Of a stretch of 64,000 nucleotides of DNA, positions 30,751 through 58,056 are shown piece after piece (position 1 is the first letter of the stretch; each line of letters opens with the position of its first letter). The DNA is from a virus, in IMG/VR virus record IMGVR_UViG_3300033993_002274, positions 31,869-95,868 of that record; one strand, given 5' to 3'. The translations under genes and the position numbers were made by a program. The notes beneath the pieces were generated by a model. It saw nothing but the letters and a program-made list of their open reading frames with translations, had not been told where the DNA came from and made no database searches.

Positions 30751-33700
30751 TTATGGGAAAAATATACCATAACTATTTTTAAATTGGACAAAATATCTAT
30801 TATAAATATCTTGTATGTCGGGGAACGACGAATTTACTTTGTCATTTTTTCTAGTTATAAAATCATTGGTTGTACTTGGTAAATTAACGTAGGCACCTAC
30901 TCCACCTCCAGGACTAACAAATCTTCCTTCAAACCAAAATAAAGTAAATAACGTATAGGCTTCTGCATATTTTTCAACATCTGTGGTATTTGTACTGAAA
31001 GTTTTTAGTTGTTCTATAATAGGTAAAAAACTTTGAACTTGAGCATGTATAAATTGTGTTGGTACTACAAAGTCTGAGAACGATGCATAAGGTCTAGATG
31101 ATGTATCATTTTCTAATGCCGTTGTTAAACACACTTGTTGGGATATAAGAGCATTTAAATCTGCAGTATAGTTGTTTGAAGTTGATATTTCATATAGATT
31201 ATAATTTGGTGGATTACAAACAACTTGGTCAATTTTATTATTTATTCTAGTAAATGCAATACCAAAATAAAGAGGTCGTAATTTTTCTTGGGCCGCTGGA
31301 ATATTTGTCGTTAATAAAGTTTTTAAATCTTCAACCGTTATTGGTGTTATATTAATTCCAACAAATGGTGTAGTTGTAAACGTCGTCGCAGAAAGACAAA
31401 TATTTTCAGGACTTTGTAACGCGCCAGGTTGTACCGTACCTTGTTGTGTGTTTACATTTGTAATTGGTTCAGTTGTCTTAACTTCTTTTAATATCAATTC
31501 TTTGTATGCGTTTATATAATTTTGATTGACTGTGTCTAATAGACTATTTGGTTGTGGTAAACTATATCTTGATATTCTTGGACCTGAAAAAGTTGTGGAA
31601 AAACTAGTTTGAGTAATTCTATGTGATAGTGATAAAACCATGTAAGGTCCATAGAATAATGGTACATGTCTTAAGTTGAAGTACATAGTCGGTTGAATCA
31701 TGGCATTACCCATCATTTCTATTTCAACATTATAACTTCTACTTTTATATATACTATAAAGTGAAACGGATTGTTGAGCCACTTTGTCTCCTGAAACAGA
31801 TGCTCCTAATTGTGCAAACATTTTATTTGATTCTGCAGTGTTTTTCTTTTCAGACATATCTACTTTAACACTTTTAAAAATACTTTGGTTTTGAGTTCCG
31901 TAATCAACGCTAAAACCTACTACTCTATTTTTTTTAGAGTAGTCTTCCTCGGGGTTAGATGGTACTCTTAATGGGTTGTCTGAAGATTTTCTTATATCAA
32001 ATGTATCACTTGCAAACTTTGAAAATGAAGAATTACTTGCAACAAACTCTGACGGTTTACCTGTATAAAGTAATAAAAATTTTGGAGATGCCTTTAAATA
32101 ATCAACATCCAAAAAAGTTCCAAACAATGTTTCAGTTGCATCCACAGGTAATGGTGTACTTTTCGCCACCGCCTGCTGTATACCGTAAAAATTAACGTAT
32201 GCTGGTAAAGCAAAGAAAACCATGTTGTTTTGCGAACATATTTGAGATATTAATGATAAATAATTTTGGTTGTCGTTTGATTTTAAATAACCTTTGATTT
32301 TTTCTAAGTCAATTGTAAACTCATCACCAATATCTCTACCAGCCTTGTCTTGAAATAAAAAATCTTCAAATATTGTTTTATTTAAAAAATCAGTACCAGA
32401 AATCCATTTATCATTCATTGTTTTTAAAATGGAATATGTATCTAACTTATTAACATTACCTGAAGTTGTATTTTTGATTGTTGTTGTGTTAGTTGTTGTT
32501 GTAGGTAAATCAGTATTCAATCTATTGAAAGTCTGTGTTAAATTTTCAGCATTAAAATTTTGTTGTTGTAATAAAAAATTATTAATTGCTTGTTGGAATT
32601 TTAATTTATTTAAAGTTGCATCTTCAGATTTTTGTTTTGCAAATAATCTAATTAGTGGGAATAATGCTTCAACGTTTGCCTCTGTAAACTCAATATCCAT
32701 TCCATTATTTGCCGTAAAAAAATCTGTAATTACACTCCCCGTATCTGTATATTGGAATGGTGTTTGGTTAAAAACTCCCACATATTTTCTAAGAGAGTTC
32801 CACGCATCTCTGTTGTTTGCAATACTTGTTGCTAATGTAGGTGAACCGACTGTTCCGTCACCAGGTAAGGAACCAGGTATATATGGATTAAGAGTTAAAG
32901 GGTTTAAAGGTTGGAATGTAGGATTGTTACTTATATAATTAAAAACTCTTCGTTTAAAATTACCGGGGTTACCCATTTTAAGAACACATTCAAAATTTAA
33001 AAAATCTACAACTTTTGGAAAAAAGTTAGATATTTGTTTTTCCGCCAAAAGTAAACCATCTTGTGATTCATCGTTTAGTAATGTCACGCTATTTTTTGGC
33101 ACCATAAATAAGGATTCCATTTGATTGAAAAGTCGTTTTTCTGTCACATTTCTAACTGAACCAGGATTAGTATAGTTAGAGTTTGTTTGTTCTTCATTTA
33201 AAATTAAATCAGATACTGCCGGTGTTGGGTTACAAAAGTTTAAGAATAAATTTTCAAACTTATCTAAAATTTCTGGTTCAAATACCGCAAATATTTCTTC
33301 TATATTAGAATATGTTGATTGTGCATTTTTTAATTCGAAACTTAAATTTTTACTGTTGTTCGTGTAAACAACTTTTAAATATTCATTAAATGCTGGTTTT
33401 TTAATTAAAGAATTTTTAAAATAACCAAACTGTGATACACCCCAAAGTGGTCTAACACTTCCATTATAAACTGCCTTGTTATTAAAAACTTCTTCTTTAA
33501 TTTTATTTGTCGCATCAAAACATTCAAAATTCATTTGGTTTATATTGATTCCCCCTGTTGATGGGATTAACAAAAACTTTTGATTGCTTTCGGGATTATC
33601 AAAATAGGCGTAGTAATTTTTGTTCACAAACGCTCTGTTTGGATTTTGTAAATCAAATCCAAAGTTGTAGAATTTTCCTGAAGTTGAGTTTGTACCTATT

Positions 33701-36700
33701 TTTAAACCTACTGTATTATACGCATCTAAAAAAGACTGATAGGTTGGTGTGTTTAAAATGGTCAAATCTTTGTTAAAGAAAAATCGATAAACATTATTAA
33801 TTACTTTAGGATACACCCCTAAAGTGACATTATCCATCGTTTGATTAACATTTGGTATTAGTGTTGTTGTACTTTGTAATTTAATTTCTACTTGAGTTGT
33901 TCCGCCAGTATATGATGGAAAAATTAATTTACTATTTGTGCTAGGTGTTGTCCCTGTTGTGTCATAACTTTTTAAATAATCAAAATCGGTCCAAATTGTA
34001 TTATCTAATATGTCATTTCCTGTTTGAATAAATTTTTTGTACCTATGCCATATACTTCCATATTTTAAAACCCACGCATATGGTAATCGGTGAATTGATG
34101 AAAACTTGTTAAAGGTTGACGCCAAATAATCTAAATCTGTTGCCACGGAACTTGTGTCATCAAAACTTTTAATTTTTTCTCTTGTTGTAATTAAAGGTAA
34201 TGAATTTAAATATAAATAACCTAATGCAGCGTAAGGGTCTGAAACGTTTGTTTTTTGATTTTCAACTCCTTGAACTAAAGCATTAACAAAATATGGAGTA
34301 TTCAATAATGATGTTGTTTGTATTTTTGTTGCTACTTGACCACTATATTCATTCCCATAATCAAAAATACTTTCGGTAAAATATAAGTCTTTTTCTTTTC
34401 TTGTTGAATAAAAATTACTCAAAGAAGTTTGTGAGTTTACTGGTACACTTGTATTCAAGTTTGTCATGAAAGGTTGTGTAAAATTTTTAAACTCATACTT
34501 AGAAACAAAAACATTGATATTTTTAGTGTTTTCTGTTTCGTTTACCCTCGCTATTGTTTTTTTCTCATCTAAATAAACATAACTTGATGTTTTATTAAAA
34601 TCGTTTATTGATGAAATACTATCACCTCCTTGTAAATTTGACTTTAACCAATTAACATTTGTTATTGGGTAGTTGTCTAAAAAATAAGTGTCGGTGGCTG
34701 GCATACCGTTTATAAAATTTTTAATTGAGTCAGGTAATGGTACATTCCCGTCTATGGCAATTGATGAATTAGATAATGTGTCAATACTATAAACCTCATT
34801 ATAAACATCAACGTTTTGTGTTCCATCATTTAATTCTAATAAATTTTTTATGTACTCTGTGGTAAAAACTGAGTCAGAATAAAGTGTCCATCTTGTACCA
34901 GTACCATTATTTGAAATTTTTCTTAATGTTTGTAAAAAATTGACGTAGGTGAATGAAAATTCTTTTAAAATTTTAGTGAGTGCCAAATTACTTTGTACTG
35001 TTTGTTTTATATTTTCAGCCTCTAAATTTCCCAAGAAAACAGGTATTTGTTCTTGGTTATATCCATTTCTATTTAATTTAGCATAATACGCACCTAAATA
35101 ACTTCTTTCAAAAATTTCATATAAATAACTTTGTTCTTGAGTATTAACGTATGGTGTTGTTTTGAATGGAAATTCTACTGCATTTATAGATAAAACTTTA
35201 CTTAACGATGCGGGATTATTATATACATTTGCAGATTTTGGTGTTGTTTTTTGTGCTATTGCATTAATGTATTCCTCAGTAAACGCAACTTCGGGCCATA
35301 CAACACTATCGAATCCTTTTGTGGTGTTTATAACTGAACTGTCACCAGGGTATTTTATAACGTATAACTCTGAACCATCTTTTTGGGCTTCTTTTAAAAA
35401 ATATTGTGGCCAAGGATAAACAACATTTAAATCGTTAAGTTGATTTGTACCGTTTACCAAATTTTTAGAATCTACTCCAAAATTTTTTGATGCCGGTATA
35501 ATTGATTCTAACCTTATTGGGTTTGTTCTTTGATTCCATGCGCTTGTGTGGGTGTCTTCCATAAGTCTATAAAACCCATCTAATCCGGCAAATAAAACTG
35601 CCATAACGTTTCTTATAGTAGGTAAAAATCCTAAAACATTTGGTCCGTTTACTACTTGGTCACTTAAAAACTGAGTGAGAGATTTTTCTATTTCTACATT
35701 TTTTTTATTTAACTCATCATTAATTTTTTGAATCTTATCTAAAAAACTATTTGCAATATAATTGTTGGAACTTCCAACTTTATCACCAAATTTGTAATAT
35801 TGGGGAAAATCATTAACCACAGTGTTGGTTAATGTGTCAAGTAAAAAATTTGGATTAAGACTTTTAAAGTCGGCAATAGATTTATTTAACTGATTGTCTG
35901 TTGGATTAGTTCCAAAATTAACAACATATGTTTCTCTAAAATCCGCGTCGGTTAATGTGTTATAATCTATCTCTTCAAAAATATCATTAATTGAAAATTT
36001 AATCGGTATTTCACCAGGTATATTTCCCTTATCAGGTAATTTATACTGTCCTCCCGTTCCAAAACTTTTGTTATTTTTTAATAAAGTAACATAGTTGTTT
36101 ATTGCAGTTTCAACACGTTGTTTATATTTTGCTCTATCTGCAAATGAAATGTTTTCTAAATATGGGTAATAAATTTGTCCTTTGTATAATTTTTCTGATG
36201 TATCTAAAAAGTCAGTTATTGAATTGGCGTAGACTTCGTTTCTTAATTTATTTAAGTTTGTCTGAAAATCAGCAACATCATTCATTACTGTAAAATCTGC
36301 CTTTTTTAATGCGTCCGCTAATGCTGTAGGTAGGTTTTCTATTCGGGCAATAAATTCCTCTAAAGTTATTTCAGGAAAATCTGGAGTAATTAATCCCTTA
36401 CTTTTATAAATAGAATAAGCTTCTCTCATTTTTTGTAACCCTACTGATTCAACAACGGTGGTTGAGTTGTTTGTATTTACACCATTATTTGAAGAGTTTG
36501 AAGTACTTTGAGTAACCACAGTTTCTGTTTGAAACATTTTTGGTGAGTTTCTAGCATATCCTATTATACTATCAGCAAGTATCGCACTGTTTCTACTTAA
36601 AAGTTTAAGAGTAATTTTAAAATTACCACTTGACGCTTCGAAACTCGCATTGAAATCCGTTAAACTTAATTGGTACCTAATTGCCTTCCCATAATATCCT

Positions 36701-37326
36701 TTTAAGGTTAAAAAAAACGGAGGATATGGTAAGTTAAAAAAAACAGAATATAATGAATTATCTCCTTGTTCAAATAAAGCTCGACCTCTAATGTCTTCCA
36801 TTTGTATTGTTACATTTGTCACATTAGCTGGTGTTACGTCAACAGTTATTTCTGTAATACCTAAAGTTTGAGTATCTTCATAGTTTAAAACTTTTTGTTT
36901 AAAAACAGCATTTCCATCTTGATTAATTTGATATTCGGAGTTTTGATTAATTCCTTGACCTTGTCTAACGCCTCTACCTGTAAATTCATCCGACCAACTT
37001 GTATCAAATGCTTTTTTACCTTTGGGTCTTAAAAAATTAAGTTTCAAATCTTCAGGGAAAGTAGATAAGGATGCAATTTGTGAATTATAAACAGGATTAT
37101 CAAAACTATCACCAATTGCTAATTTTGTTCTTGGTATAATTTGTGTTTCTAAATTTGCGTAAAAAACAAGATTTTCTTGTTGAACGTATCTATCTTTAAC
37201 GTTGTTGTCTGCATCAACAACTTTGTTAGGGTCAATTAAAATAATATTATCGTAGTCGGCTTCGACTAGAATTTTATTTTCTTTGTTATATATCTGTCTG
37301 AATTTTGTTGGGTCATTAACGGCCAT
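30751..37326 (-). CDS. Giant baseplate hub protein with gp27/gpD-like segments
   Basis: 2191 residues, no membrane segment or enzyme motif. Near the N-terminus (about 150-250), NVTIQMEDIRGRALF and PPFFLTLKGYYGKAIRY look like a tail-tube-fold domain. At about 1860-1920, VEIEMMGNAMIQPTMYFNL followed by VPLFYGPYMVLSLSHRI and FSTTFSGPR strongly recalls the C-terminal hub domain of gp27/P2 gpD proteins. The ~1600 residues between are Asn/Tyr/Thr-rich and unassigned. Its ATG overlaps the gp53-like gene by 11 bases. It is far larger than T4 gp27 (391), so the hub may have absorbed other functions. Hub identity is a reasoned inference. Confidence 0.55.
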   Translation of the reverse strand: MAVNDPTKFRQIYNKENKILVEADYDNIILIDPNKVVDADNNVKDRYVQQENLVFYANLETQIIPRTKLAIGDSFDNPVYNSQIASLSTFPEDLKLNFLRPKGKKAFDTSWSDEFTGRGVRQGQGINQNSEYQINQDGNAVFKQKVLNYEDTQTLGITEITVDVTPANVTNVTIQMEDIRGRALFEQGDNSLYSVFFNLPYPPFFLTLKGYYGKAIRYQLSLTDFNASFEASSGNFKITLKLLSRNSAILADSIIGYARNSPKMFQTETVVTQSTSNSSNNGVNTNNSTTVVESVGLQKMREAYSIYKSKGLITPDFPEITLEEFIARIENLPTALADALKKADFTVMNDVADFQTNLNKLRNEVYANSITDFLDTSEKLYKGQIYYPYLENISFADRAKYKQRVETAINNYVTLLKNNKSFGTGGQYKLPDKGNIPGEIPIKFSINDIFEEIDYNTLTDADFRETYVVNFGTNPTDNQLNKSIADFKSLNPNFLLDTLTNTVVNDFPQYYKFGDKVGSSNNYIANSFLDKIQKINDELNKKNVEIEKSLTQFLSDQVVNGPNVLGFLPTIRNVMAVLFAGLDGFYRLMEDTHTSAWNQRTNPIRLESIIPASKNFGVDSKNLVNGTNQLNDLNVVYPWPQYFLKEAQKDGSELYVIKYPGDSSVINTTKGFDSVVWPEVAFTEEYINAIAQKTTPKSANVYNNPASLSKVLSINAVEFPFKTTPYVNTQEQSYLYEIFERSYLGAYYAKLNRNGYNQEQIPVFLGNLEAENIKQTVQSNLALTKILKEFSFTYVNFLQTLRKISNNGTGTRWTLYSDSVFTTEYIKNLLELNDGTQNVDVYNEVYSIDTLSNSSIAIDGNVPLPDSIKNFINGMPATDTYFLDNYPITNVNWLKSNLQGGDSISSINDFNKTSSYVYLDEKKTIARVNETENTKNINVFVSKYEFKNFTQPFMTNLNTSVPVNSQTSLSNFYSTRKEKDLYFTESIFDYGNEYSGQVATKIQTTSLLNTPYFVNALVQGVENQKTNVSDPYAALGYLYLNSLPLITTREKIKSFDDTSSVATDLDYLASTFNKFSSIHRLPYAWVLKYGSIWHRYKKFIQTGNDILDNTIWTDFDYLKSYDTTGTTPSTNSKLIFPSYTGGTTQVEIKLQSTTTLIPNVNQTMDNVTLGVYPKVINNVYRFFFNKDLTILNTPTYQSFLDAYNTVGLKIGTNSTSGKFYNFGFDLQNPNRAFVNKNYYAYFDNPESNQKFLLIPSTGGININQMNFECFDATNKIKEEVFNNKAVYNGSVRPLWGVSQFGYFKNSLIKKPAFNEYLKVVYTNNSKNLSFELKNAQSTYSNIEEIFAVFEPEILDKFENLFLNFCNPTPAVSDLILNEEQTNSNYTNPGSVRNVTEKRLFNQMESLFMVPKNSVTLLNDESQDGLLLAEKQISNFFPKVVDFLNFECVLKMGNPGNFKRRVFNYISNNPTFQPLNPLTLNPYIPGSLPGDGTVGSPTLATSIANNRDAWNSLRKYVGVFNQTPFQYTDTGSVITDFFTANNGMDIEFTEANVEALFPLIRLFAKQKSEDATLNKLKFQQAINNFLLQQQNFNAENLTQTFNRLNTDLPTTTTNTTTIKNTTSGNVNKLDTYSILKTMNDKWISGTDFLNKTIFEDFLFQDKAGRDIGDEFTIDLEKIKGYLKSNDNQNYLSLISQICSQNNMVFFALPAYVNFYGIQQAVAKSTPLPVDATETLFGTFLDVDYLKASPKFLLLYTGKPSEFVASNSSFSKFASDTFDIRKSSDNPLRVPSNPEEDYSKKNRVVGFSVDYGTQNQSIFKSVKVDMSEKKNTAESNKMFAQLGASVSGDKVAQQSVSLYSIYKSRSYNVEIEMMGNAMIQPTMYFNLRHVPLFYGPYMVLSLSHRITQTSFSTTFSGPRISRYSLPQPNSLLDTVNQNYINAYKELILKEVKTTEPITNVNTQQGTVQPGALQSPENICLSATTFTTTPFVGINITPITVEDLKTLLTTNIPAAQEKLRPLYFGIAFTRINNKIDQVVCNPPNYNLYEISTSNNYTADLNALISQQVCLTTALENDTSSRPYASFSDFVVPTQFIHAQVQSFLPIIEQLKTFSTNTTDVEKYAEAYTLFTLFWFEGRFVSPGGGVGAYVNLPSTTNDFITRKNDKVNSSFPDIQDIYNRYFVQFKNSYGIFFP

Positions 37327-37634: not shown

Positions 37635-40600
37635 TTAGTCGAATGAAACTTTTAAGTTATATTCATCACCTGTAGAATTAGTTGATGCGTTTAGGGCTTT
37701 CATGTTGTCAATTTCTGTTTGTGCTGGAAATAATACTTGAGAAAAATTTAGTTTTCTTTCCTTATCTTTATTTAAATTATAACTACATGTTGAACAAAAT
37801 TCTTTACTTAAAAAATTATCTTCGAAACTTTTAAATCTTGCATCAACAAAAGCTTTTGAATCTTTATATTTTGCGTAAGGTCCTGTTGGTATTTCTTGTC
37901 CCGTATTTGTAAAACCTAAATTACCTTTAAGATAATTAAACCAGTCGGTTTTTCTTTCATTGTTTGAAATTGTATCGACGACTTCATTTAAAAATTTGGT
38001 ATAGTCATCAATAATTTCTTTACCGAATATCATAAAAAATCTATTTTCTTCAGGACTTATCGCATCTGGGTCCGAATCTATAAAGGTATTGAAATCAAAC
38101 TCATCGTTATATACTTCATCTTGAGCGGTTGGAATCAGACTATATGTTTCTAAGTTGTTATTAAATGTGCTCATTTTGGTTCCAACAATTAATAAGTCTC
38201 CTTTTAACTCATCCAAAGTATTTGCGTATGTCGTATTAGATGGGTCAACCGCAGAAGTACCTGTCAAAGAAAAAACAATTACTTCATTTTTATCGTTAGA
38301 ATAACCATCGAAAGAATTACACACATAATTTAATTGGTCTAATAAATCAATTGTTTTAGTTTCATCAACTTGATTTTTTACAATGTTGTTAGACGCCTCA
38401 GTTATAATAGACAGGTAAGTTGACTGTCGACTATCTATCATATCTTTAAGTTTTCTTTTAATTTTTCTTGTCGATATATTTGTAAAATTCTGTAGAGGTA
38501 AACTAGCCAATATCGGGCTTGTTTCATTTTCTACATCTTCTTTTGCTTTAGAAAACAACGCATCAACTTTATTTTCATACTGACTTTTTCCAAATATTTT
38601 TACTAAGTTAGTTTGTGGTTGATTGATGTTATTAAAATATCCCGTTTGGTATTTTCTATCTTTTGTAAAAATTAAAATTCCTCCAATCAATAACTTATCA
38701 TTTATATTTTTTAAATTTTGAAAAACACTATTTGCATATTCTTTGGTTATGTCTATAAAATTTTTCATATTTTCTTTATATGATAAAACACCTGTAAATC
38801 CACTTAATGTTGTATCATATTTAGATGATTCTTGTTTTCCAATTGTAGTTCCAATTTTATTTTGTTGGTTTTGCTGTGGTCTTGTCAATGGGTTTATTTT
38901 CAAAGCTTCAAAATATTCTGCATCATACTGTGATGTTACATCTTCGGTTATTGTCGCCCTTTCATCATACATTTCAGTATTTGCATAATAATTAAATGAA
39001 AGGGCGTTTTGAAGTTCGGCTATCGGACCCGCCAATCCATGACCACCTATCATTTTAAATCCTAATGTTATGCTTGCAAACATAGGTTGAACGCCTATTC
39101 CTTCAGGATTCAAATCTAACGGTATATTTGAATTAAGTTCATATTTTATATCTAACCTATCAGGTATTATTTTAGTGTGGAAAAAATCACCAATCCTTAA
39201 TACCAAAACAGGTGGTGCACCAAATGCACTGTTAAAGGCGTCGTTATAATCTAAACTATATGTTCCTGCCGCATTTTGTGAAACAGTTGGAATTGTATCT
39301 CCTGGTCTTACACATTGTTGTAAAAATGTTAATCTTGAGTTTAGACCTTCAGGAGTAATAGAGTGGAAAACAGGATTAAAATACTGAAACTTACTTCTAA
39401 TTGTGTCATAAATAAATGGATTTGTCTCTTTAACCATTTGAAAATAATTACACTCTGTAAGTAACCTTCTTAATATTTTTTTCGCCAAATCTTTATATTG
39501 TGGTGTTTGTTTAAAGTTGTCAATTACTTGGTTTTGTGGTGTTGGTTTCGGTGCTGTACTTTCAGCAGCGGTAGGATTTGGAGCAGCAGACTCTACTTGT
39601 GAAGGTGGTGTTTCTGATTTTGCGGGTGGTCCTGGTTTATATACAATTTTTTCAATTTTTACTCTTCTACATGCCATTGCCTGTACAGAATAAATTCCTT
39701 CTTCGTATTGTGATTTAAATGGTTTGGTACAATCAATTTGTGAATATTTAGGGTCTTGAATTGCAGCACTTGAGCCCGTCGCTTTAGCATTTATTTTTAG
39801 TTTTCCTGAATCTATAAATGATTTTAAAGTTTTATTATTTACTGTAAACTTTTCAATAAACTTTAAAACCGCATCGTTTCTTCTTTCAGACAAATTTTGA
39901 TTACCACTGGTATTTGTTGAGCTGGCAGTTGCCAATAAGTCAAAAGTGACTTCTCCACCTGAGTCTAAAACTTTAAATACTTCACTTAAAAACTCTTTTA
40001 AATCATTAAACTCTTGTAATATATTATCAAAAAATCCACTAAGGGTTTGTTTTCTTGTGTCAACATATTCGGTTAATGAAAAAGTAGGAGTTGTTGTTGT
40101 GTTAAGAGCCACTTTATTTGCGTCACTATATTTAAAAACTTTATTAAGTGGTTTTGTTGTGTCATATAATGTTTTATTTGACACATATTCATTATACCAA
40201 TATTCAAAATCTTTACTTGTTGTTGAACTACTTGAATCGTTAGGTTGGGCGTTTTCAAAAAACAAAAATATTTCTTGAAACTTTGGGTCTGAAATTTTTG
40301 TTTCAGTTTCTGGTGGTGTTGTTTTTACAATTTCTTCTTTTACAGGTTCGGGGTCAGGTGTTTCTTTTACTATGGTTGTTGCTTGTTCAGGATATTTTAT
40401 TAGTTGAATAGCGGTTTGAATATCCTGTGGGGCTAAAGATGCGAATCTTTGACCTAATGTATAAATGTCATATTTTAAACACCCTGCAAAAAATGAATCC
40501 ATAACTTTTTTCAATTCTGACTCAGGTTTTATATCTTTCAACTCTTGGTCCACTAAAATGTTTGAGATAGAGGGATGGTCAACTATAATGTCAAAAGATA

Positions 40601-43600
40601 ATGACCCATTTCTTTCAGTACTATTATATGTGTATATGGGTTCTGGTCTACCTATGAAATTTGTATTACTGAAGTCGGGTCTTGTGTCTTCACTAAATGT
40701 CAAGTTATATGGAGGAAACCACATAATTCTACCACCATTGGGTCCTCTTTCACAAGCCGGTAAATCTTGTACGGTAAAACCAGGTTTGTTTGATGTTCTC
40801 CAAGCCAAATTTTCTAACGAAAGCATATATTTTTTAACCTGACCATTAATAATATTTGACGATTGTCCGTTTTTATCATTGAATGGTACAATATTAAGGT
40901 TATATGTATTATCTAAAACTGAATAGGTATAATTTCTAATATTACCATCCGTTTTTTGTAGTTGTGAATAATTTGTAAAAGGAACATCTTTTGTAAATAA
41001 TCTACAATATTCATATCCTTTTATTGTACTGTCTGTACTACCTACTGAGTTTTTTGAAGTATATCTAATAACTCGAGAACCTTTTGTCATTTCAACATAT
41101 CCATCATTAAAAACTTTAGATATTTGATTTATCGCAGTACCAACGTGTTCTAATTTTTTAATTCCTGACCTGTCTGCAGAATCAACAATTTTTTGAGTTG
41201 TGTCTAAAATTGAACCGTCTCTCCATACATTGTTTTCTTCTATTTTCCAAGACTCAGTATCTTTGAACGCTGACTCATAATTTTTTGTAAATACGCTACT
41301 TTCACCAAATCTTTGTTTTCCTTCAGGACCTGCTAATTGTCCTGTTTTAAAATATGATTTTTTAGAAGACCATGTGAATCCACCAGCTAAAGGTGTTGTA
41401 CCATCTATATAATTTCTAGTGTTGAGACCAAATTTATAATTTTGAAACGCTTCACCTTCAAAATACTTTCCTATTTCACCCACTGAGTAAACAGGTGCAC
41501 CACTAGGTTCTCCGTTCCTGTCTAGGGGTTGAGCATTAACTGGAGATATTAAAGTAGAAAATATATCATCAGAATTACCACCACCATAAAATTCAGGGGA
41601 TGGGGCAAATAAAGAAGGTCTTCTTAAAGTTAGACCTCTATAATCAGGTCTATATAAATTATAAAACAATTGCCCAAACAATAGACTTCTTGTTGCGTTA
41701 GATGTGTTGGCTAAAAAAAGTTCAGACCCTCTTTTGTTTTTTTGACCTGTTATTGTTCTAATTGCTCCCATAACAGTACTTGTCACAACTTCAACTGGGT
41801 TTTCAACAAGTCTATTTAACATACGTTTATTTGGGTAGTCAAAATATTCTCCAACTATAATGGAATACGGTGAATATAATCCTGCTATTTTAGCTGTAAA
41901 ATTCAACGCTCTTCCAACTAATGATTCAGGTGATGTAATTGTATAATTTCTAGCTAATAACGGAATATTTCCTGATATTATTCCCGCTGCGTCAAATGGG
42001 TTAAGGTTTGGTTTTACTGATATTTCACCACTATCGGGGTCAACCGATGAGTCAAGAGCATTAACTCTACCTAAAGTTTGAGACAACAACTCACTTGCAA
42101 TTCTATACTTATATTCTTTTTTTAATTGTCTTGCACCAATTCCCGCTAATGCGGAATCCTGTGACAAAGTACCATCAGAACCTCTTGGGTTGTCGCTTAA
42201 TAATATATTAATAGGTCTATAGGTTGAAGGTATAAAATTTAAAGGTGTTAATGAATATGCATATGCACTTCCATAACTTGTTGGTATAATTTCATCAATT
42301 GTTATTACATCATAGTCTCCATCACCTGTTACATATTTATTTCTAACATATGCCTCTTGTTCTTTTTGAAATCCAATAACTTCTAATCCACTACCTTTAG
42401 TATCGGGAAAACCATATTCACCTTCATTTGACAATTTACCCAAATTTACATTGATGTCTACTGAATCTGTTGGTTGATTTTCAGGGTTATATTGATTTAC
42501 ACTAAATAATAAAGGTCTTTCATTTTCACCTTTAATTTCTAATTCACTGTCTAGTGTATCAGGAAAACCATAATTACCTTCGTTGGCGTTTGTTTGTAAA
42601 TTTAAATTTGGAACTACAGTAGATTGAGATTGTCCTTGTTCAGGTCCATATTGATTTATAGCAAATAATATGGGTCTATCGGTTTCACCTTTAATTTCTA
42701 ACTCACTATTAATTGTGTCTGTAAAGTCATATTCTTTTTCGTTAGCCTTTGTTTGCTTATTAATAAATGGGAATACAGTATCTAAAAAACCACCACCAGG
42801 ACCATATTGGTTTAATGGGTATAAGGTATTTCTATTTTGTTCACCATCTTGTTCTAATTCGCTATTTATTGTATCAGGGAAACCATATTCACCTTCATTT
42901 GAACCTAAAGATAATATGTTATTAATTGAATATTTTGTTGCTCCGTACCCTGGAGTGGATGCGTCAGGTGTATATTTATTTAAAACTCTTAAAATAACTT
43001 CCCTATCATTACCGTTTGTTTCTAATCTATTGTTTACAGTATCAGAAATATTGTACTCTCCCGCACCTACAGTTTGAATAACTTGGTTATTTTGAATACT
43101 ATAAACAGGTGTTCCAAAACCATTATTACTAGTATTTTTATAAACGTTTAATACTTTTAACGCAATTTCTTGTTGATTACCAATAGAATTTAAAAAACTG
43201 TTGATTGTATCGGCGATAGTATATTCACCTTGTCCATTTGTTACAAAAGGTTTTAAATCATTAATTGAATAAACAGGCGTACCAAAACCATTAATTGCAG
43301 AATTTTTATACGCATTTCTTACTTTAGATAAAATTTCTTGTTGGTTTCCTATACTATCTAAAAAACTATTTATTGTATCCGAAATACTATATTCACCCTC
43401 TCCTCTTGATTGAATTGTTTGATTATTATTAATGTACCATACAGTATCACCAAAACCACGGTCATTTGTGTTAAGTGGTTTATAAAGGTTTGTTACAATT
43501 AATTCTTTTTCTTTTGTATCACCAATTTTTTCTAAATCACTTCCAACAGTTAAAGGGTAACCATATTTACCTTTATTTGTTTCTGTTTGTAAATTTTTGT

Positions 43601-44024
43601 TAATTTCTATGGTATTACCATATGATGTTTCAAATTCTGTTGGCCCGTAAATGTTATTAACATACAATAATTTTTCTTGTCCGTCTCCAATTTTTTCTAA
43701 TTTAGAGTTAATGGAGTTTTTAAAACCATATAAACCAAAATTAGTTTCAACATTAAGATTAACGTTAATATTGACCATATCTCCGTAGGTGGAGTTACTA
43801 TTATCAGGGCCATATTTATTTTGTTTATATAAATCTTTTTCCTGTATGTCACCAATTTTAGAAATTTCTTCAGAGTCTTTTACTGAATAATCTACAATTT
43901 GAAATTCTTTATTTTGAAAAGATTCTCCAAAAGATGTGCCGTCAACACGATATGGTTTAAGATTTCGTGTTAATAATCTTTTTCTAAAGTTTTCAGAAGA
44001 GTTAAATGAAAGTGGACTATCCAT
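37635..44024 (-). CDS. Giant baseplate/tail-tube-associated protein with ten N-terminal repeats and OmpA-like domain
   Basis: 2129 residues. Residues ~52-600 hold about ten units of 50-57 residues with consensus NS.LE.IG…E…...N.Y.P…YG…..N.N……GEYGF.DT. At about 1095-1150, RIMWFPPYNLTFSED, FIGRPEPIYTYNSTERNG and SFDIIVDHPS resemble tail-tube-initiator proteins. Residues ~1345-1460 form an OmpA-C-like domain (NQNLSERRNDAVLKFI, ACRRVKIEKI). At about 1618-1690, ITLGFKMIGGHGLAGPIAEL again looks tube-related. It lies between tape measure and gp53, where a tube-baseplate junction protein is expected. The exact T4 counterpart (gp48/gp54) is uncertain. Confidence 0.55.
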   Translation of the reverse strand: MDSPLSFNSSENFRKRLLTRNLKPYRVDGTSFGESFQNKEFQIVDYSVKDSEEISKIGDIQEKDLYKQNKYGPDNSNSTYGDMVNINVNLNVETNFGLYGFKNSINSKLEKIGDGQEKLLYVNNIYGPTEFETSYGNTIEINKNLQTETNKGKYGYPLTVGSDLEKIGDTKEKELIVTNLYKPLNTNDRGFGDTVWYINNNQTIQSRGEGEYSISDTINSFLDSIGNQQEILSKVRNAYKNSAINGFGTPVYSINDLKPFVTNGQGEYTIADTINSFLNSIGNQQEIALKVLNVYKNTSNNGFGTPVYSIQNNQVIQTVGAGEYNISDTVNNRLETNGNDREVILRVLNKYTPDASTPGYGATKYSINNILSLGSNEGEYGFPDTINSELEQDGEQNRNTLYPLNQYGPGGGFLDTVFPFINKQTKANEKEYDFTDTINSELEIKGETDRPILFAINQYGPEQGQSQSTVVPNLNLQTNANEGNYGFPDTLDSELEIKGENERPLLFSVNQYNPENQPTDSVDINVNLGKLSNEGEYGFPDTKGSGLEVIGFQKEQEAYVRNKYVTGDGDYDVITIDEIIPTSYGSAYAYSLTPLNFIPSTYRPINILLSDNPRGSDGTLSQDSALAGIGARQLKKEYKYRIASELLSQTLGRVNALDSSVDPDSGEISVKPNLNPFDAAGIISGNIPLLARNYTITSPESLVGRALNFTAKIAGLYSPYSIIVGEYFDYPNKRMLNRLVENPVEVVTSTVMGAIRTITGQKNKRGSELFLANTSNATRSLLFGQLFYNLYRPDYRGLTLRRPSLFAPSPEFYGGGNSDDIFSTLISPVNAQPLDRNGEPSGAPVYSVGEIGKYFEGEAFQNYKFGLNTRNYIDGTTPLAGGFTWSSKKSYFKTGQLAGPEGKQRFGESSVFTKNYESAFKDTESWKIEENNVWRDGSILDTTQKIVDSADRSGIKKLEHVGTAINQISKVFNDGYVEMTKGSRVIRYTSKNSVGSTDSTIKGYEYCRLFTKDVPFTNYSQLQKTDGNIRNYTYSVLDNTYNLNIVPFNDKNGQSSNIINGQVKKYMLSLENLAWRTSNKPGFTVQDLPACERGPNGGRIMWFPPYNLTFSEDTRPDFSNTNFIGRPEPIYTYNSTERNGSLSFDIIVDHPSISNILVDQELKDIKPESELKKVMDSFFAGCLKYDIYTLGQRFASLAPQDIQTAIQLIKYPEQATTIVKETPDPEPVKEEIVKTTPPETETKISDPKFQEIFLFFENAQPNDSSSSTTSKDFEYWYNEYVSNKTLYDTTKPLNKVFKYSDANKVALNTTTTPTFSLTEYVDTRKQTLSGFFDNILQEFNDLKEFLSEVFKVLDSGGEVTFDLLATASSTNTSGNQNLSERRNDAVLKFIEKFTVNNKTLKSFIDSGKLKINAKATGSSAAIQDPKYSQIDCTKPFKSQYEEGIYSVQAMACRRVKIEKIVYKPGPPAKSETPPSQVESAAPNPTAAESTAPKPTPQNQVIDNFKQTPQYKDLAKKILRRLLTECNYFQMVKETNPFIYDTIRSKFQYFNPVFHSITPEGLNSRLTFLQQCVRPGDTIPTVSQNAAGTYSLDYNDAFNSAFGAPPVLVLRIGDFFHTKIIPDRLDIKYELNSNIPLDLNPEGIGVQPMFASITLGFKMIGGHGLAGPIAELQNALSFNYYANTEMYDERATITEDVTSQYDAEYFEALKINPLTRPQQNQQNKIGTTIGKQESSKYDTTLSGFTGVLSYKENMKNFIDITKEYANSVFQNLKNINDKLLIGGILIFTKDRKYQTGYFNNINQPQTNLVKIFGKSQYENKVDALFSKAKEDVENETSPILASLPLQNFTNISTRKIKRKLKDMIDSRQSTYLSIITEASNNIVKNQVDETKTIDLLDQLNYVCNSFDGYSNDKNEVIVFSLTGTSAVDPSNTTYANTLDELKGDLLIVGTKMSTFNNNLETYSLIPTAQDEVYNDEFDFNTFIDSDPDAISPEENRFFMIFGKEIIDDYTKFLNEVVDTISNNERKTDWFNYLKGNLGFTNTGQEIPTGPYAKYKDSKAFVDARFKSFEDNFLSKEFCSTCSYNLNKDKERKLNFSQVLFPAQTEIDNMKALNASTNSTGDEYNLKVSFD
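42250..43880 (-). repeat. Ten degenerate ~160-base coding repeats
   Basis: The coding region of the 2129-residue protein contains ten in-frame units, recognisable by starts such as NSKLEKIGD, GSDLEKIGD, NSFLDSIGN, NSFLNSIGN, NSELEQDGE, NSELEIKGE and DSELEIKGE, and by ends such as GEYGFPDT. They are diverged at DNA level, with units 4-5 and 8-9 the most alike. Confidence 0.8.
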
Positions 44025-54048: not shown

Positions 54049-55812
54049 ATGGAAGATTTTGTGCCTAAAACACCCGAATCAAAAGCCCTTTTAATATTAG
54101 ATGATTACGAAGGGTCAAATAACTATATCCTTAATTTAAAACACAAAAAAGAGAACAGTAAGTCTTTCGTACCCACAAGACCGCAGGCGGATTATATCAA
54201 TAATTATAACACAACACAACCAAAAGTTGCAAAAAAATGGGTCAAACTTGATTCATATTTTGGTAAAAAACTGATGGAAGATAAGATGTATACTAAGGAA
54301 CCTTCTGAAATATATGTTGAAAAATTGTTGGTTGAAAAAGACAAAGCATATCATATTTGGGGTAAGATATTTTCAGGAGAAACTTTACATGATTTTTGGA
54401 TGCCAAAATCAGCCTTATTAAAAGATAATGAAGTTAAAAACATTTCTATTGATTATGGTAAGTACACTCATAGACCTCCTATGGAACATCAAAAAGAAGC
54501 AATCGAAAAACTTGTAAGAAATAAAAAGTTTATTCTGGCCGATGACATGGGTCTTGGTAAAACAACATCAACCATAATTGCAGCATTAGAAACGGGAGCC
54601 AAAAAAATATTAATTGTGTGTCCAGCATCATTAAAAATAAATTGGCAAAGAGAGATTGCAAATTATTCAGATAGGTCTGTTTATATTGCAGAAGGTAAGA
54701 AATTTTCAGACGAACATGATTTTGTTATTGTAAACTACGACATCTTAAAAAATTTTCATGACATTAAAGAAAAGGATAAGTCAGAAATTATGAAAATTAA
54801 TTTTGATTTGGTAATCATGGATGAAGCTCATATGATTTCTAATCCACAAGCCCAAAGAACAAAAATCGCTAACGACATCGCAAGTAAATCAAATAGAGTT
54901 TGGTTATTATCAGGAACACCTATGACCTCTCGACCTATGAATTATTATAATTTATTAAACCTTGTTGATAGTCCAGTGGCAATGAATTGGATGGCTTACG
55001 CTAAAAGATATTGTAATGGATTTCAATTTAGCGTTGGGAAAAGAAAGGTATGGAACGTTACAGGAGCATCCAATCTTGACGAATTAAGAGAAAGAACCTC
55101 AACACATATTCTAAGAAGGTTAAAAGAAGAAGTTTTGGATTTACCTGAAAAAATTATCACACCTGTTTATTTAAGACTCAAATCAAAAGACTACGAAGAA
55201 TTAATGGGTGAATATTTTGATTGGTATGACCAAAACCCTGAAGAGTCATCTTCACTTACAATTCAGTTTGGTAAACTAATGAAAGTAAGAAAAGTAATTG
55301 CACAAGAAAAAATTAATAACACAATCGAGTTAGCGGAGAACATTATAGAACAAGGTAAAAAGGTCATTATATTTACAAACTTTACCGACACATTAAATCA
55401 AATCTATAATCACTTTGGTAAATCTGCGGTTTATTTAGATGGTAGTTGTTCTAAGTTTCACAGACAAAATGCGGTCGATGAATTTCAAACAAACGATAAA
55501 ATCAAAGTATTTGTTGGAAACTTAAAGGCTGCTGGTGTGGGGATTACTTTAACCTCGGCGGAAGCTGTAATTATGAATGATTTATCTTTTGTTCCTGCTG
55601 AACACTCACAAGCAGAGGATAGGTCACATAGAATTGGTCAAAAAAATTCAACATCAGTTTATTATCCTCTTTTCGAAAATACAATAGAAGGTGCAATTTA
55701 CGACATATTAAATAGGAAAAAGAAAATTATCTCAACAGTAATGGGTGACGATATGTTTGATGACGCATCCACAATAGAAGAAATGTTAAATTTAATTTCT
55801 AGCAATCGATGA
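54049..55812 (+). CDS. SNF2-family DNA helicase/translocase
   Basis: 587 residues from the ATG at 54049. Longer in-frame reading from 53842 would overlap the divergent neck gene, so I reject it. Motif I LADDMGLGKTT (K171), Ia LIVCPASLKINWQ, II VIMDEAH (258-261), III LLSGTPM, V GVGITLTSAE and VI QAEDRSHRIGQ define the SWI2/SNF2 group, closest in style to SMARCAL1/HepA-like annealing helicases. It may remodel forks or branch structures, the task of UvsW in T4. First gene of the plus-strand block; the next gene starts 12 bases later. Confidence 0.88.
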   Translation: MEDFVPKTPESKALLILDDYEGSNNYILNLKHKKENSKSFVPTRPQADYINNYNTTQPKVAKKWVKLDSYFGKKLMEDKMYTKEPSEIYVEKLLVEKDKAYHIWGKIFSGETLHDFWMPKSALLKDNEVKNISIDYGKYTHRPPMEHQKEAIEKLVRNKKFILADDMGLGKTTSTIIAALETGAKKILIVCPASLKINWQREIANYSDRSVYIAEGKKFSDEHDFVIVNYDILKNFHDIKEKDKSEIMKINFDLVIMDEAHMISNPQAQRTKIANDIASKSNRVWLLSGTPMTSRPMNYYNLLNLVDSPVAMNWMAYAKRYCNGFQFSVGKRKVWNVTGASNLDELRERTSTHILRRLKEEVLDLPEKIITPVYLRLKSKDYEELMGEYFDWYDQNPEESSSLTIQFGKLMKVRKVIAQEKINNTIELAENIIEQGKKVIIFTNFTDTLNQIYNHFGKSAVYLDGSCSKFHRQNAVDEFQTNDKIKVFVGNLKAAGVGITLTSAEAVIMNDLSFVPAEHSQAEDRSHRIGQKNSTSVYYPLFENTIEGAIYDILNRKKKIISTVMGDDMFDDASTIEEMLNLISSNR

Positions 55813-55820
55813 TATTTATA
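55813..55820 (+). promoter_or_regulatory. TATTTATA element upstream of peptidase-SOD gene
   Basis: A perfect coding-strand TATTTATA 4 bases before the ATG at 55825. It has the same orientation relative to its gene as the minus-strand copies, which argues against chance base composition. Confidence 0.4.
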
Positions 55821-55824
55821 TATC

Positions 55825-56910
55825 ATGACCGTGGATATTAAATATATAGATGTTGACCCAACAAAGGAGGATAAAGAATTAATTAACAAATTTATTTCTC
55901 AGTTGAAAAAAAATTATCCTTTAGAAAATGACATAACAATCTTGTTTCAAAATAACAGAACTGGTAAAATGACCACAGGGTCAAGGACAGACAAACATAA
56001 ATTAAAAATATTAGTTAAAGATAGATTAAATCGTGATGTGATGAGAACATTAGCACATGAATGGTCCCATGAACATCAAAGAACAGTTCTTAATAGAAAA
56101 AAAGGTAAAGACATTGGAGGTAAAAATGAAAATGAAGCCAGTTCTCAAGCATCTGAAGAAATAAAAAAATTCGAAAAAGGTAATAAAAAAATAGAAAAAG
56201 TTATTTATAAACCTTTTACAGAAAGAATTGAAAGAATAGAATCTTTGTTACAAATAGAATCTTTAGAAAAACAATCATTAATAAATGAAATTAAAAAAAT
56301 AAGCGTAGATAAACTACCTTACGAATATGATTCTTTAGAAGTTTTTATTGATAGTGAAACAATGAAAACTCACTACAACAAACATTACAAAGGTTATGTT
56401 GAAAAATTAAATAAAGAATTAGAAAAAATAAGTGGTAAAGATTTAGACTTAGAACAAATTATATCTGACATTTCAAGTTTTAATACAATAGTTAGAAATA
56501 ATGGTGGTGGAGCATTTAATCATGCGTTGTTTTGGAAAATGATGTCGCCTAAAAAACAAAAGTTAGACGACCCCATCAAAAGTAAAATAGAAAAGACTTT
56601 CGGTTCATTTGAAAAATTTAAAACAGAATTTGAAGACGCCGCCAAATCTCGTTTTGGTTCAGGTTGGGTATGGTTGATTCTTACAGATAAAAATAGATTG
56701 AAAATTGTAACCACCGCAAATCAAGACAACCCCCTAATGGATAATCAAGAAGAAAGAGGTTACCCCTTGTTAGGTCTTGACGTTTGGGAACATGCTTATT
56801 ATTTAAAATACAAAAATCTAAGAGACAAGTACGTATCTAATTTTTGGAAAGTGGTTAATTGGGGATTTGTTAATGATTTGTATTCTACTCAGTCTAAACT
56901 TAACAACTAA
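55825..56910 (+). CDS. Fusion of HExxH metallopeptidase-like domain and Mn-type superoxide dismutase
   Basis: 361 residues. Residues ~1-115 are zincin-like: a core strand, then TLAHEWSHEHQ with H78-E79-xx-H82 and NENEAS (E104) as possible third ligand. A charged helical linker (~115-160) follows. Residues ~164-355 are a complete Fe/Mn SOD: LPYEYDSLEVFID, H183 in THYNKHYKGYV, H233 in GGGAFNHALFW, FGSGWVWL, and D319/H323 in GLDVWEHAYYLKY. ANQDNPLM and GGG before NH are Mn-type features. All four metal ligands are intact. SOD dismutes superoxide; the peptidase substrate is unknown. It lies between SNF2 helicase and the gp13-like neck gene; virion or cytosol location is open. Confidence 0.85.
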   Translation: MTVDIKYIDVDPTKEDKELINKFISQLKKNYPLENDITILFQNNRTGKMTTGSRTDKHKLKILVKDRLNRDVMRTLAHEWSHEHQRTVLNRKKGKDIGGKNENEASSQASEEIKKFEKGNKKIEKVIYKPFTERIERIESLLQIESLEKQSLINEIKKISVDKLPYEYDSLEVFIDSETMKTHYNKHYKGYVEKLNKELEKISGKDLDLEQIISDISSFNTIVRNNGGGAFNHALFWKMMSPKKQKLDDPIKSKIEKTFGSFEKFKTEFEDAAKSRFGSGWVWLILTDKNRLKIVTTANQDNPLMDNQEERGYPLLGLDVWEHAYYLKYKNLRDKYVSNFWKVVNWGFVNDLYSTQSKLNN

Positions 56911-56934: not shown

Positions 56935-58056
56935 ATGGCAACTACTGTAATTATCACCGAACCTGAAAGAAGTAAATTATATAAAAGAATAAAAAATCTT
57001 TTAGGTGCCCCTATTCGTAGTGTTGAATTAGAAGACGAAATGATGGATTCATTATTAGAATTATCTATTCAGGATTACGCACAGCACGTTAATGATTGGT
57101 TGATTGAAGCTCAATGGTCTTCTTTGAACGGTTTGAATTTAGATGAGCAATCACTAACAAGGGCCTTTACTACAAGAAGTATGGATTGGGAAACTCAATA
57201 TACTTACGCATATTCAAAAATTGTGGGATTACAAGCTGGTGGCGATTATGTATTGAAAAAAGATTATATTGATTTAGTTGCAAATCAACAAATATATGAA
57301 ATACCTGCAGGTCGTGAAATCAATGAAATATTATGGTTTTCTCGTTCTGAATTAGACGCAGCGTATTTTGACCCGTTCATGGGTGGATTTGGTGGATTTG
57401 GTGGTATTGGTTTAGGTGGTGGAGCAGGATTTTCTCAAATGGGGACAACAGGAAATTATTTTATTACACCAGCCTTTGATATTTTACTTAGAATGGCTGA
57501 CATTCAAATGAAAAGAAGAATCATAACAGGAGATTTGACTTATAGAATAACGGCACTTCCTGAAGGAAAAAAAGCATTACATTTAATGAATGTACCTGGT
57601 GGAAAATTTGATTTTGGAAATATTGCTTATCAAAAATACAAAGTATGGTATTGGTATTATGATACTTTTGATAGAGATGATTGTTTAGCGAAAAATCCTG
57701 ACGTAGTTAGACTTCCTTCTGACGTTCCAATTGACGAAATGAGATGGGATGAATTAAATTCACCAGCAAAAACTTGGGTTAGAAGATGGTTTACGGCATA
57801 CTGTAAAGAAACTTTGGCAAAAGTAAGAGGTAAGTATAGTGGTAGTTTAAAGACTCCTGATAGTGAATTAACCTTAGAGTGGCAAAGTTTGAATACTGAA
57901 GCCAAAGATGAAAAGGCTATGTTGTGGGAAGAATTAAAAACTAGACTTGAAAGGTTAAGACCTGAAAAACAAATGGAACAAAAAGCCTTACAGGCTGAAA
58001 ACTTGAACAAAGCCTTGAAATTTAGAGCATTTACAAGTCCTTATAATATCATATAA
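56935..58056 (+). CDS. gp13: Neck protein, gp13-like
   Basis: 373 residues (T4 gp13 is 309). KRIKNLLGAPIRSVELEDEM and LELSIQDYAQHVNDWLIEAQ form an N-terminal helical head-tail adaptor-like part. A Gly-rich loop (GGFGGFGGIGLGGGAGF, about 150-166) interrupts the middle. RWFTAYCKETLAKVRGKYSG near the C-terminus fits gp13-like neck proteins. It would sit at the portal-tail junction. It is isolated on the plus strand from the gp14/gp15-position genes, which lie on the minus strand ~3 kb away. Confidence 0.55.
   Translation: MATTVIITEPERSKLYKRIKNLLGAPIRSVELEDEMMDSLLELSIQDYAQHVNDWLIEAQWSSLNGLNLDEQSLTRAFTTRSMDWETQYTYAYSKIVGLQAGGDYVLKKDYIDLVANQQIYEIPAGREINEILWFSRSELDAAYFDPFMGGFGGFGGIGLGGGAGFSQMGTTGNYFITPAFDILLRMADIQMKRRIITGDLTYRITALPEGKKALHLMNVPGGKFDFGNIAYQKYKVWYWYYDTFDRDDCLAKNPDVVRLPSDVPIDEMRWDELNSPAKTWVRRWFTAYCKETLAKVRGKYSGSLKTPDSELTLEWQSLNTEAKDEKAMLWEELKTRLERLRPEKQMEQKALQAENLNKALKFRAFTSPYNII

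Follow-up and report, generated by a model that had tools for sequence, protein, structure and literature searches.

A predicted zincin-type domain fused to a manganese-type superoxide dismutase, with exchangeable end modules, in a phage gene next to a gp13-like neck gene

Results

The locus and its features

The window, the whole stretch of DNA analysed here, comprises 64 kb out of a 95.9 kb virus record, and was assigned to a contractile-tailed phage on the strength of its other genes, among them those for a tail sheath, a baseplate hub and a DNA polymerase. In the gene described here, one open frame of 361 amino acids joins a zincin-like domain to an Fe/Mn superoxide dismutase (SOD). The main features are as follows (nucleotide positions in the window):

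54049..55812, + strand: SNF2-type helicase gene, conserved upstream neighbour (phrog_62, E 7.8e-117; synteny)
55813..55820, + strand: TATTTATA octamer, promoter-like, ending 4 nt upstream of the ATG (enriched upstream of genes)
55825..56910, + strand: whole gene, zincin-like domain, linker and Fe/Mn SOD, 361 aa (single open frame)
55825..56208, + strand: N-terminal zincin-type domain (N-domain), residues 1-128, exchangeable cassette (model, PDB fold matches, absence or replacement in close relatives)
56209..56304, + strand: linker, mostly helical, residues 129-160, containing the 3' edge of the cassette exchange (model and DNA alignment)
56305..56895, + strand: complete Fe/Mn SOD domain, residues 161-357 (Pfam, PDB sequences, fold)
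56935..58056, + strand: gp13-like neck or head-tail adaptor gene, conserved downstream neighbour ('head-tail adaptor Ad2', phrog_211, E 1.6e-10; synteny)

A preliminary description, made from the letters of the window, had read one uninterrupted frame at 55825-56910, lying between an SNF2 helicase and a gp13-like neck gene and preceded by its own sequence element. The frame, both neighbours and the element (TATTTATA at 55813-55820) were found as described, and the two domain identities that it proposed proved correct, through Pfam matches to Sod_Fe_N and Sod_Fe_C and a zincin-like model of the N-terminal part.

Viral contigs were scanned with the whole protein; 521 stretches encode a relative, of which 80 were kept. 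The identical fused frame is present in 72 of these, and a frame with the SOD only in the other 8 (L069-L073 and L078-L080). A second scan used the profile of the N-domain alone, with 80 loci kept. The SOD lies in the same frame as the N-domain in 78 of 80 frames (79 loci of the profile scan and the window's own), and the remaining two are truncated by a contig end. No locus with an N-domain at the same place but without the SOD was found in two 80-locus scans that had the SOD as part of the query, and none of the eight records of the SOD-only relatives, all fragments, holds an N-domain elsewhere. A frameshift or assembly error fusing two genes, a possibility that the preliminary description had raised and that the eight SOD-only relatives would favour, was ruled out and has a negligible probability, since the fusion recurs in 72 of 80 relatives, which come from many metagenomes with separate numbers, and since alignment of two SOD-only loci showed the N-domain DNA to be cleanly missing. 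In one further locus (L217), the SOD part is split into two frames.

Neighbouring genes and the upstream octamer

The SNF2 and gp13-like genes both adjoin the fusion in 151 of 164 loci (some contigs were fetched twice). One or both are missing in the other 13, which are mostly short stretches and include L224. A small extra gene (beginning MPTKLDQ) lies between the helicase and the fusion at L196 2078-2785 and L216 2571-2999. In L069 (3214-6108), the ATP-binding loop of the SNF2 helicase is interrupted in frame by a long insertion, intein-like by eye, whose last residues, ...VTHN, precede the loop Thr. On the - strand of the window, 30751-37326 and 37635-44024 are taken up by two very long frames, of 2191 and 2129 aa.

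The window contains 19 copies of the octamer TATTTATA, where 12 are expected (a count as high was reached in 2 of 100 shuffles). By our own gene list, 8 of 38 genes have a copy in the 60 nt upstream, against 0.26 expected, on the coding strand at the following positions:

10289, 21216, 44039, 47605, 51986, 53997, 55813, 56915: TATTTATA copies before 8 of 38 genes

It is also found near the start of the frame in 69 of the 78 related loci with a recognised frame (of 80). These counts suggest that TATTTATA marks a common, candidate phage-specific promoter class. A late-promoter role is plausible for the copy upstream of the fusion, but the 4 nt between it and the ATG leave little room. The late octamer of phage T4 is TATAAATA; as a candidate late octamer here it was rejected, being not enriched (1 of 38 genes, against 0.28 expected).

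The N-terminal domain is predicted to be a glutamate-zincin

In a model of the full-length protein the SOD half was poor (pLDDT <50 in parts), and the list of PDB matches was filled by SODs; the N-domain was therefore predicted alone. Sixty N-domains, chosen by us from the loci, were used for the alignment and the model, which reached a pLDDT of 90.7 and a pTM of 0.86. The putative zinc site comprises two elements:

56056..56070, + strand: HEWSH motif, H78-E79-W80-S81-H82 (H78, E79 and H82 invariant, 60/60)
56128..56130, + strand: E102, most likely third zinc ligand, on the next helix, predicted at residues 100-119 (invariant, 60/60)

In the model the HExxH motif lies on a helix spanning residues 70-87 and E102 on that spanning 100-119; by the motif, one metal should be surrounded by H78, H82 and E102. 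The HEWSH motif lies at residues 78-82 as first described, and its HExxH pattern, whose conservation had been left as a check, is retained in all 60 N-domains and in 39 of 39 distinct full-length relatives. The third ligand had been given as E104, which was the wrong residue. Position 104, nearly invariant in the 60 N-domains, holds E, D or V in a first alignment of 22 sequences, and E104 was dropped in favour of E102, which does not vary.

Comparison of the N-domain model with 1000 PDB chains placed zincin-type metallohydrolases in all of the best 50 positions, led by the M30 peptidase lugdulysin (Z 9.1, rmsd 3.3, 112 residues aligned). Wss1 (Z 8.2, 109 aligned), M1 aminopeptidases, PPEP and BepA are also among the best 50, as are 1oz9 (Z 8.8), which we take to belong to the YbeY family, and two further YbeY-type chains, 7y7o (Z 8.2) and 1xm5 (Z 7.7). 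Four of the M1 rows are titled as virus-spike complexes, and the chain in question was taken to be aminopeptidase N from its length. Only 15 of the 1000 chains reached a Z of 8 or more, and a best Z of 7 to 8 is common even for models that lack a clear match, so the zincin-like fold, another point left for checking, is supported at moderate scores. With Foldseek alone, no match to the N-domain model reached E 0.001; at the head of its list, at E 0.016-0.15, stood Wss1, PPEP-1, an M61 peptidase and YbeY, with mostly unrelated proteins below. The full-length model matched in BFVD an uncharacterised phage protein of 127 aa (A0A6J5L9U4; 32% identity, TM 0.88 by target), an IrrE-N-like protein (A0A6J7WL94; TM 0.77 by target) and SprT-like phage proteins.

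No Pfam family scored above its cut-off for residues 1-128, and a PDB sequence search with the N-domain profile gave 0 matches at E up to 10, so that the peptidase assignment rests on fold and motif. The Pfam profiles of ImmA/IrrE and SprT did not match the window protein or two relatives, and the likeness to these families is at the level of the BFVD fold matches. The dN/dS of the N-domain was 0.05-0.17 for 11 of 21 pairs among 7 sequences, the values being rough for 4 pairs because their dS exceeds 1.5, near saturation. The HExxH motif is thus more than a chance occurrence, because the domain that carries it is under purifying selection. The zinc site is invariant while the rest of the N-domain diverges, which argues that its chemistry matters. 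The modelled domain has the layout of a glutamate-zincin, with HExxH, a Glu on the following helix and a zincin fold, and is predicted to act as a peptidase.

The N-domain of L160 gave a weak match to phrog_1365 (E 0.0043) and, among annotated phage records, one weak match in Synechococcus phage B23. Among bacteria, one of 105 pattern matches is a relative of the N-domain, a partial, more distant copy (L239 1-231); it lies at the contig end of a Flavobacteriales MAG, with neighbours that look chromosomal by eye. At L224 2986-3390 (+ strand), a zincin domain forms a separate frame of 134 aa in another context with no SOD in frame, and a frame resembling an AAA ATPase lies upstream of it.

The superoxide dismutase domain has a complete Mn-type active site

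The C-terminal part of the window protein matched both Pfam domains of the Fe/Mn SODs, Sod_Fe_N over residues 161-241 (E 9.6e-23, 80.9 bits against a cut-off of 27) and Sod_Fe_C over residues 250-350 (E 1.5e-41, 141 bits against a cut-off of 20.9). Searched against PDB sequences, the whole protein had 160 distinct matches at E up to 0.001, headed by superoxide dismutases (6gsc and 5a9g among others), and the SOD fold was matched by the full-length model with a Z of ~21. Conservation was read from 244 SOD matches, which are redundant:

56371..56373, + strand: metal ligand H183 (243/244, rest gap)
56521..56523, + strand: metal ligand H233 (243/244, rest gap)
56722..56724, + strand: Q300, C-terminal water-coordinating residue, Mn-type (241/244, rest gaps)
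56773..56775, + strand: G317, the 'XD-2' residue two before the Asp ligand, Mn-type (241/244, rest gaps; rule from the available part of PMC10172142)
56779..56781, + strand: metal ligand D319 (241/244, rest gaps)
56791..56793, + strand: metal ligand H323 (241/244, rest gaps)

The four ligands, H187, Y191, G229, Q300, G317 and E322, the last presumably an interface residue, show zero substitutions and 1-3 gaps each in this redundant set. All four ligands of the full Fe/Mn SOD reported in the preliminary description are thus present. Its Mn-type assignment also stands, on Q300 and G317, though the HxxxHH motif is incomplete, reading HYNKHY with Tyr188 in place of the last His; this Tyr is invariant in alignments of 26 and 11 members. 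A C-terminal Gln and a Gly at XD-2 are features of the Mn-preferring SodFM1 enzymes, and loss of the last His of HxxxHH is named as a mark of SodFM4, in the available part of a survey of the family (PMC10172142). SodFM1 predominates in Bacteroidota, according to the parts available of this and another source (PMC10172142, PMC13008324). The SOD type and the Flavobacteriales MAG with the partial N-domain copy point weakly to Bacteroidota as possible hosts. The domain was classed as an Mn-type Fe/Mn SOD and not as SodFM1, because its HxxxHH ends in Tyr188. Judged by its residues, the SOD is intact with a complete active site of Mn type, and is predicted to dismutate superoxide.

The SodFM1-like MnSOD of Sphingobacterium sp. 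T2 (5a9g/6gsc) shares 43% identity with the window SOD over 176 aligned residues, and the two have in common both Pfam domains, the four ligands, the C-terminal Gln and the Gly at XD-2. Unlike the Sphingobacterium enzyme, the window SOD is fused to a zincin-type domain and has HxxxHY for HxxxHH.

The N-domain is lost or replaced in close relatives

Over the final 900 nt of the helicase gene the window and the SOD-only locus L069 share 93% nucleotide identity, and over the SOD and the gp13-like gene 96%, yet L069 lacks the N-domain, the gap having one edge at the start codon and the other close to the linker. The same absence separates L008 from L079 (95% nucleotide identity in the helicase, 98% in the SOD). 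Between the window and L007, the helicase (93%), SOD (94%) and gp13-like gene (90%) are close in nucleotide sequence, and the N-domain is just 72% identical. On these alignments, the N-domain is an exchangeable cassette, cleanly missing or replaced in close relatives.

A further scan for relatives, with 80 loci kept among the matches listed, gave these architectures: 29 N-domain+SOD, 21 N-domain+SOD+tail A, 16 N-domain+SOD+tail B, 12 N-domain+SOD+other tail and 2 SOD+tail without the N-domain (4 of these 80 frames run off a contig end).

Dissimilar C-terminal modules follow the SOD in relatives

In complete frames of more distant relatives, ~335-380 extra residues follow the SOD in three main groups. 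In the first set, 61 of 163 SOD frames extend at least 60 residues beyond the SOD, and from 244 SOD frames at least 59 distinct tails were collected, which form groups A (24), B (24) and C (9), together with two singletons of 140-144 aa. No similarity between groups A, B and C was detected by BLASTP at E 0.001 over 70 residues; a remote kinship between groups, for instance B and C, may exist. Examples are:

L216 4096-5151; L311 3616-4611; L156 4093-5187: C-terminal modules of ~330-380 aa, mutually dissimilar, no database family

The tails change between very similar loci. L201 carries tail B and L203 tail A, while the N-domain and SOD are 95.9% identical in nucleotide sequence, the 900 nt upstream 98.0% and the 900 nt downstream 98.9%. 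An unrooted SOD tree was built from 86 rows: the window and the 85 of 119 that were left after thinning within each architecture at 96% identity. The tail type switches along it at least 24 times, the N-domain 3 times. When supported branches alone were counted, there were at least 10 changes for the tail-B group and 5 each for the A and C groups. Tails B and C are scattered over the tree almost as widely as shuffled labels (32 and 100 of 500 shuffles, respectively, were as low), and tail A and the tail-less group are clustered. Rooting with three distant phage SODs as outgroup was rejected, as their branches were too long; since the tree lacks a root, the changes are counted without distinction between gain and loss.

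Within group B, E145, D185, Q199 and K201 are invariant (7 sequences, alignment A6), and within group C, E100, D120 and K132 (6 sequences, alignment A7; numbering in each case by the first sequence). By eye, these residues resemble PD-(D/E)xK nuclease sites. The C-terminal modules matched nothing above cut-off in Pfam, modules C and B had no match better than E 0.15 among PDB sequences, two three-domain relatives had none better than E 0.041 in PHROGs, and module A of L212 had none among annotated phage records. PADLOC gave weak matches in one of three tails scanned (E 0.013 and 0.017). The Pfam and PDB results speak neither for nor against the nuclease resemblance. Elsewhere in the 95.9 kb record of the window, a weak profile mixing tail types gave no convincing match to a third module, the best being a 47-residue frame at E 0.034. 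In this set of sequences the SOD is the constant trunk, and the N- and C-terminal parts are exchangeable.

Comparison with known proteins

The preliminary description knew of no peptidase-SOD fusion, and none was found in the open-licence literature, which was searched mostly by title and abstract. A close parallel is provided by the polyvalent proteins of phages and conjugative elements, which combine disparate enzyme domains in one chain and in which the zincin is the commonest hub domain, proposed to cut its own chain or to attack host proteins (PMC5512222, here and below from the part available). The fusion likewise combines two disparate domains, zincin and SOD, with a third module in relatives, where at least two define a polyvalent protein, and the layout of its N-domain (strands, the HExxH helix and the next helix with a Glu) fits the zincin of these proteins (PMC5512222). 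SNF2 ATPases, another common component of polyvalent proteins, are represented here by the neighbouring gene (PMC5512222). Unlike the polyvalent proteins described, the window protein is small, and the word 'superoxide' occurs 0 times in the main text of that source (PMC5512222); it is likewise absent from the available part of a jumbo-phage overview (PMC7824862). Multi-domain phage proteins are a known theme, to which the fusion adds a new combination of domains.

Both domains have separate phage counterparts. Zincin-type domains of phages (ImmA/IrrE N-terminal-like and SprT-like, with Wss1 as a solved structure) have a similar predicted fold, but here the domain is fused to an SOD. Standalone SODs are encoded by Pseudomonas phage Callisto and the PA5oct group and by Vibrio phage 2.275.O, with genomes of 285-349 kb; these are 29% identical to the window SOD, with no peptidase domain in the match and with other gene neighbours. 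Among annotated phage-collection records, 28 match the protein; the match spans less than 80% of the query in each, and all leave the N-domain uncovered, the matches starting at residue 132 or later. The better of these matches (37-50%) look like bacterial DNA in phage records, judged by names, annotation and one neighbourhood. In BFVD, the full-length model matched a 501-aa phage 'superoxide dismutase' with 60% identity over 199 columns, so a similar SOD has already been deposited under that bare name.

The Cu/Zn SOD family, to which the enzyme of chlorovirus PBCV-1 belongs, is unrelated to the Fe/Mn SODs. The PBCV-1 enzyme is a late product that is packaged in the virion, and superoxide is reported to be lower in infected cells; like the window SOD the enzyme is encoded by a virus, but by an algal one, and no fusion is mentioned in the part of the source available (PMC7019647). 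In the available part of a Lac Pavin paper that mentions SOD and phage, the SODs are bacterial only (PMC9875498).

Discussion

The two domains, their conserved catalytic residues, the purifying selection, the genomic position and the exchange of end modules were computed directly, and both domains are probably active. We hypothesize, with about an even chance of being right, that the protein is a compact phage protein of the polyvalent type, in which an Mn-type SOD trunk carries an exchangeable zincin whose substrate is the protein itself or a target from host or phage. The SOD, probably a dimer, would be the constant trunk and clear superoxide from the infected cell; this is likely the shared function, given that the SOD is the part that stays constant. 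The N-terminal glutamate-zincin, with a predicted zinc site of H78, E79, H82 and E102, would be exchangeable and would most likely cut its own protein, releasing or activating modules, or else a host or phage protein, and in relatives a third, C-terminal module would be added and swapped. The protein would probably be produced late, along with the product of the neck gene. A trunk that keeps its place at one locus while its end modules are exchanged again and again would suit a protein that meets varied host targets, and the exchange may mirror host-phage conflict. The late expression, virion protection and targeted proteolysis proposed in the preliminary description are likewise hypotheses. 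Three points count against this explanation: the window protein is small, with two recognised domains; ordinary phage mosaicism fits the domain exchange too; and the fold scores of the modelled N-domain are moderate, with YbeY, an endoribonuclease of the same fold, among the matches.

SODs are normally plain housekeeping enzymes, and repeated exchange of parts between closely related loci is a pattern often seen in arms-race proteins. The protein might be a phage polymorphic effector of a new class, in which the SOD serves as a constant, dimer-forming chassis for exchanged warheads, the N-terminal zincin and C-terminal nuclease-like or other modules; this is possible, though on the doubtful side. 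If it were true, antioxidant activity and host-directed effectors would be delivered or expressed together.

A plain auxiliary stress gene is a rather unlikely account, in which the working part is the SOD, clearing superoxide from the infected cell, with the N-domain as an accessory for its regulation, localisation or maturation. It agrees with the dispensability of the N-domain in some close relatives (8 of 80 in the whole-protein scan and 2 of 80 in the further scan) and with the result that no N-domain without the SOD was found at the locus in two scans with the SOD in the query. Precedents are the standalone SODs of Pseudomonas and Vibrio phages of 285-349 kb, and the ROS-defence genes, SODs among them, reported in freshwater phages (PMC6802176, available in part). 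However, this account leaves unexplained both the strict conservation of the zinc site (60/60) and the swapping of dissimilar C-terminal modules.

It is unlikely that the protein is a virion component, packaged or attached at the neck, where the zincin would process itself or proteins of the head or neck, and the SOD would shield the particle or the entry site. The PBCV-1 SOD, late and packaged, is a precedent (PMC7019647, in the part available), as is the zincin-bearing DdrB of phage P1, which is processed before packaging (PMC5512222, in the part available). The fixed position, with SNF2 and gp13-like genes both adjoining in 151 of 164 loci, points the same way, but one of these neighbours is a helicase, and a DNA polymerase gene lies slightly further on, on the other strand. 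Moreover, repeated loss and exchange of domains would be unusual for an essential structural part.

Very unlikely, finally, is an N-domain that keeps the zincin fold and metal site without being a peptidase, acting as a nucleic-acid enzyme or binding module like YbeY, or as an adaptor. The YbeY-type chains 1oz9, 7y7o and 1xm5 (Z 8.8, 8.2 and 7.7) are indeed among the fold matches. In YbeY, the third metal ligand is a histidine, but here HExxH is paired with a Glu on the next helix, the arrangement of glutamate-zincin peptidases, and apart from the YbeY types the best 50 of the 1000 fold matches are peptidases.

With these exchanges among relatives, an SOD trunk with swappable parts replaces the picture of a fixed two-enzyme fusion. 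Natural near-isogenic comparisons are available in L201 against L203, and in the window against L069 and L007. The SOD is here the constant core of a modular phage protein, and what a phage may gain from the control of superoxide during infection is made directly testable.
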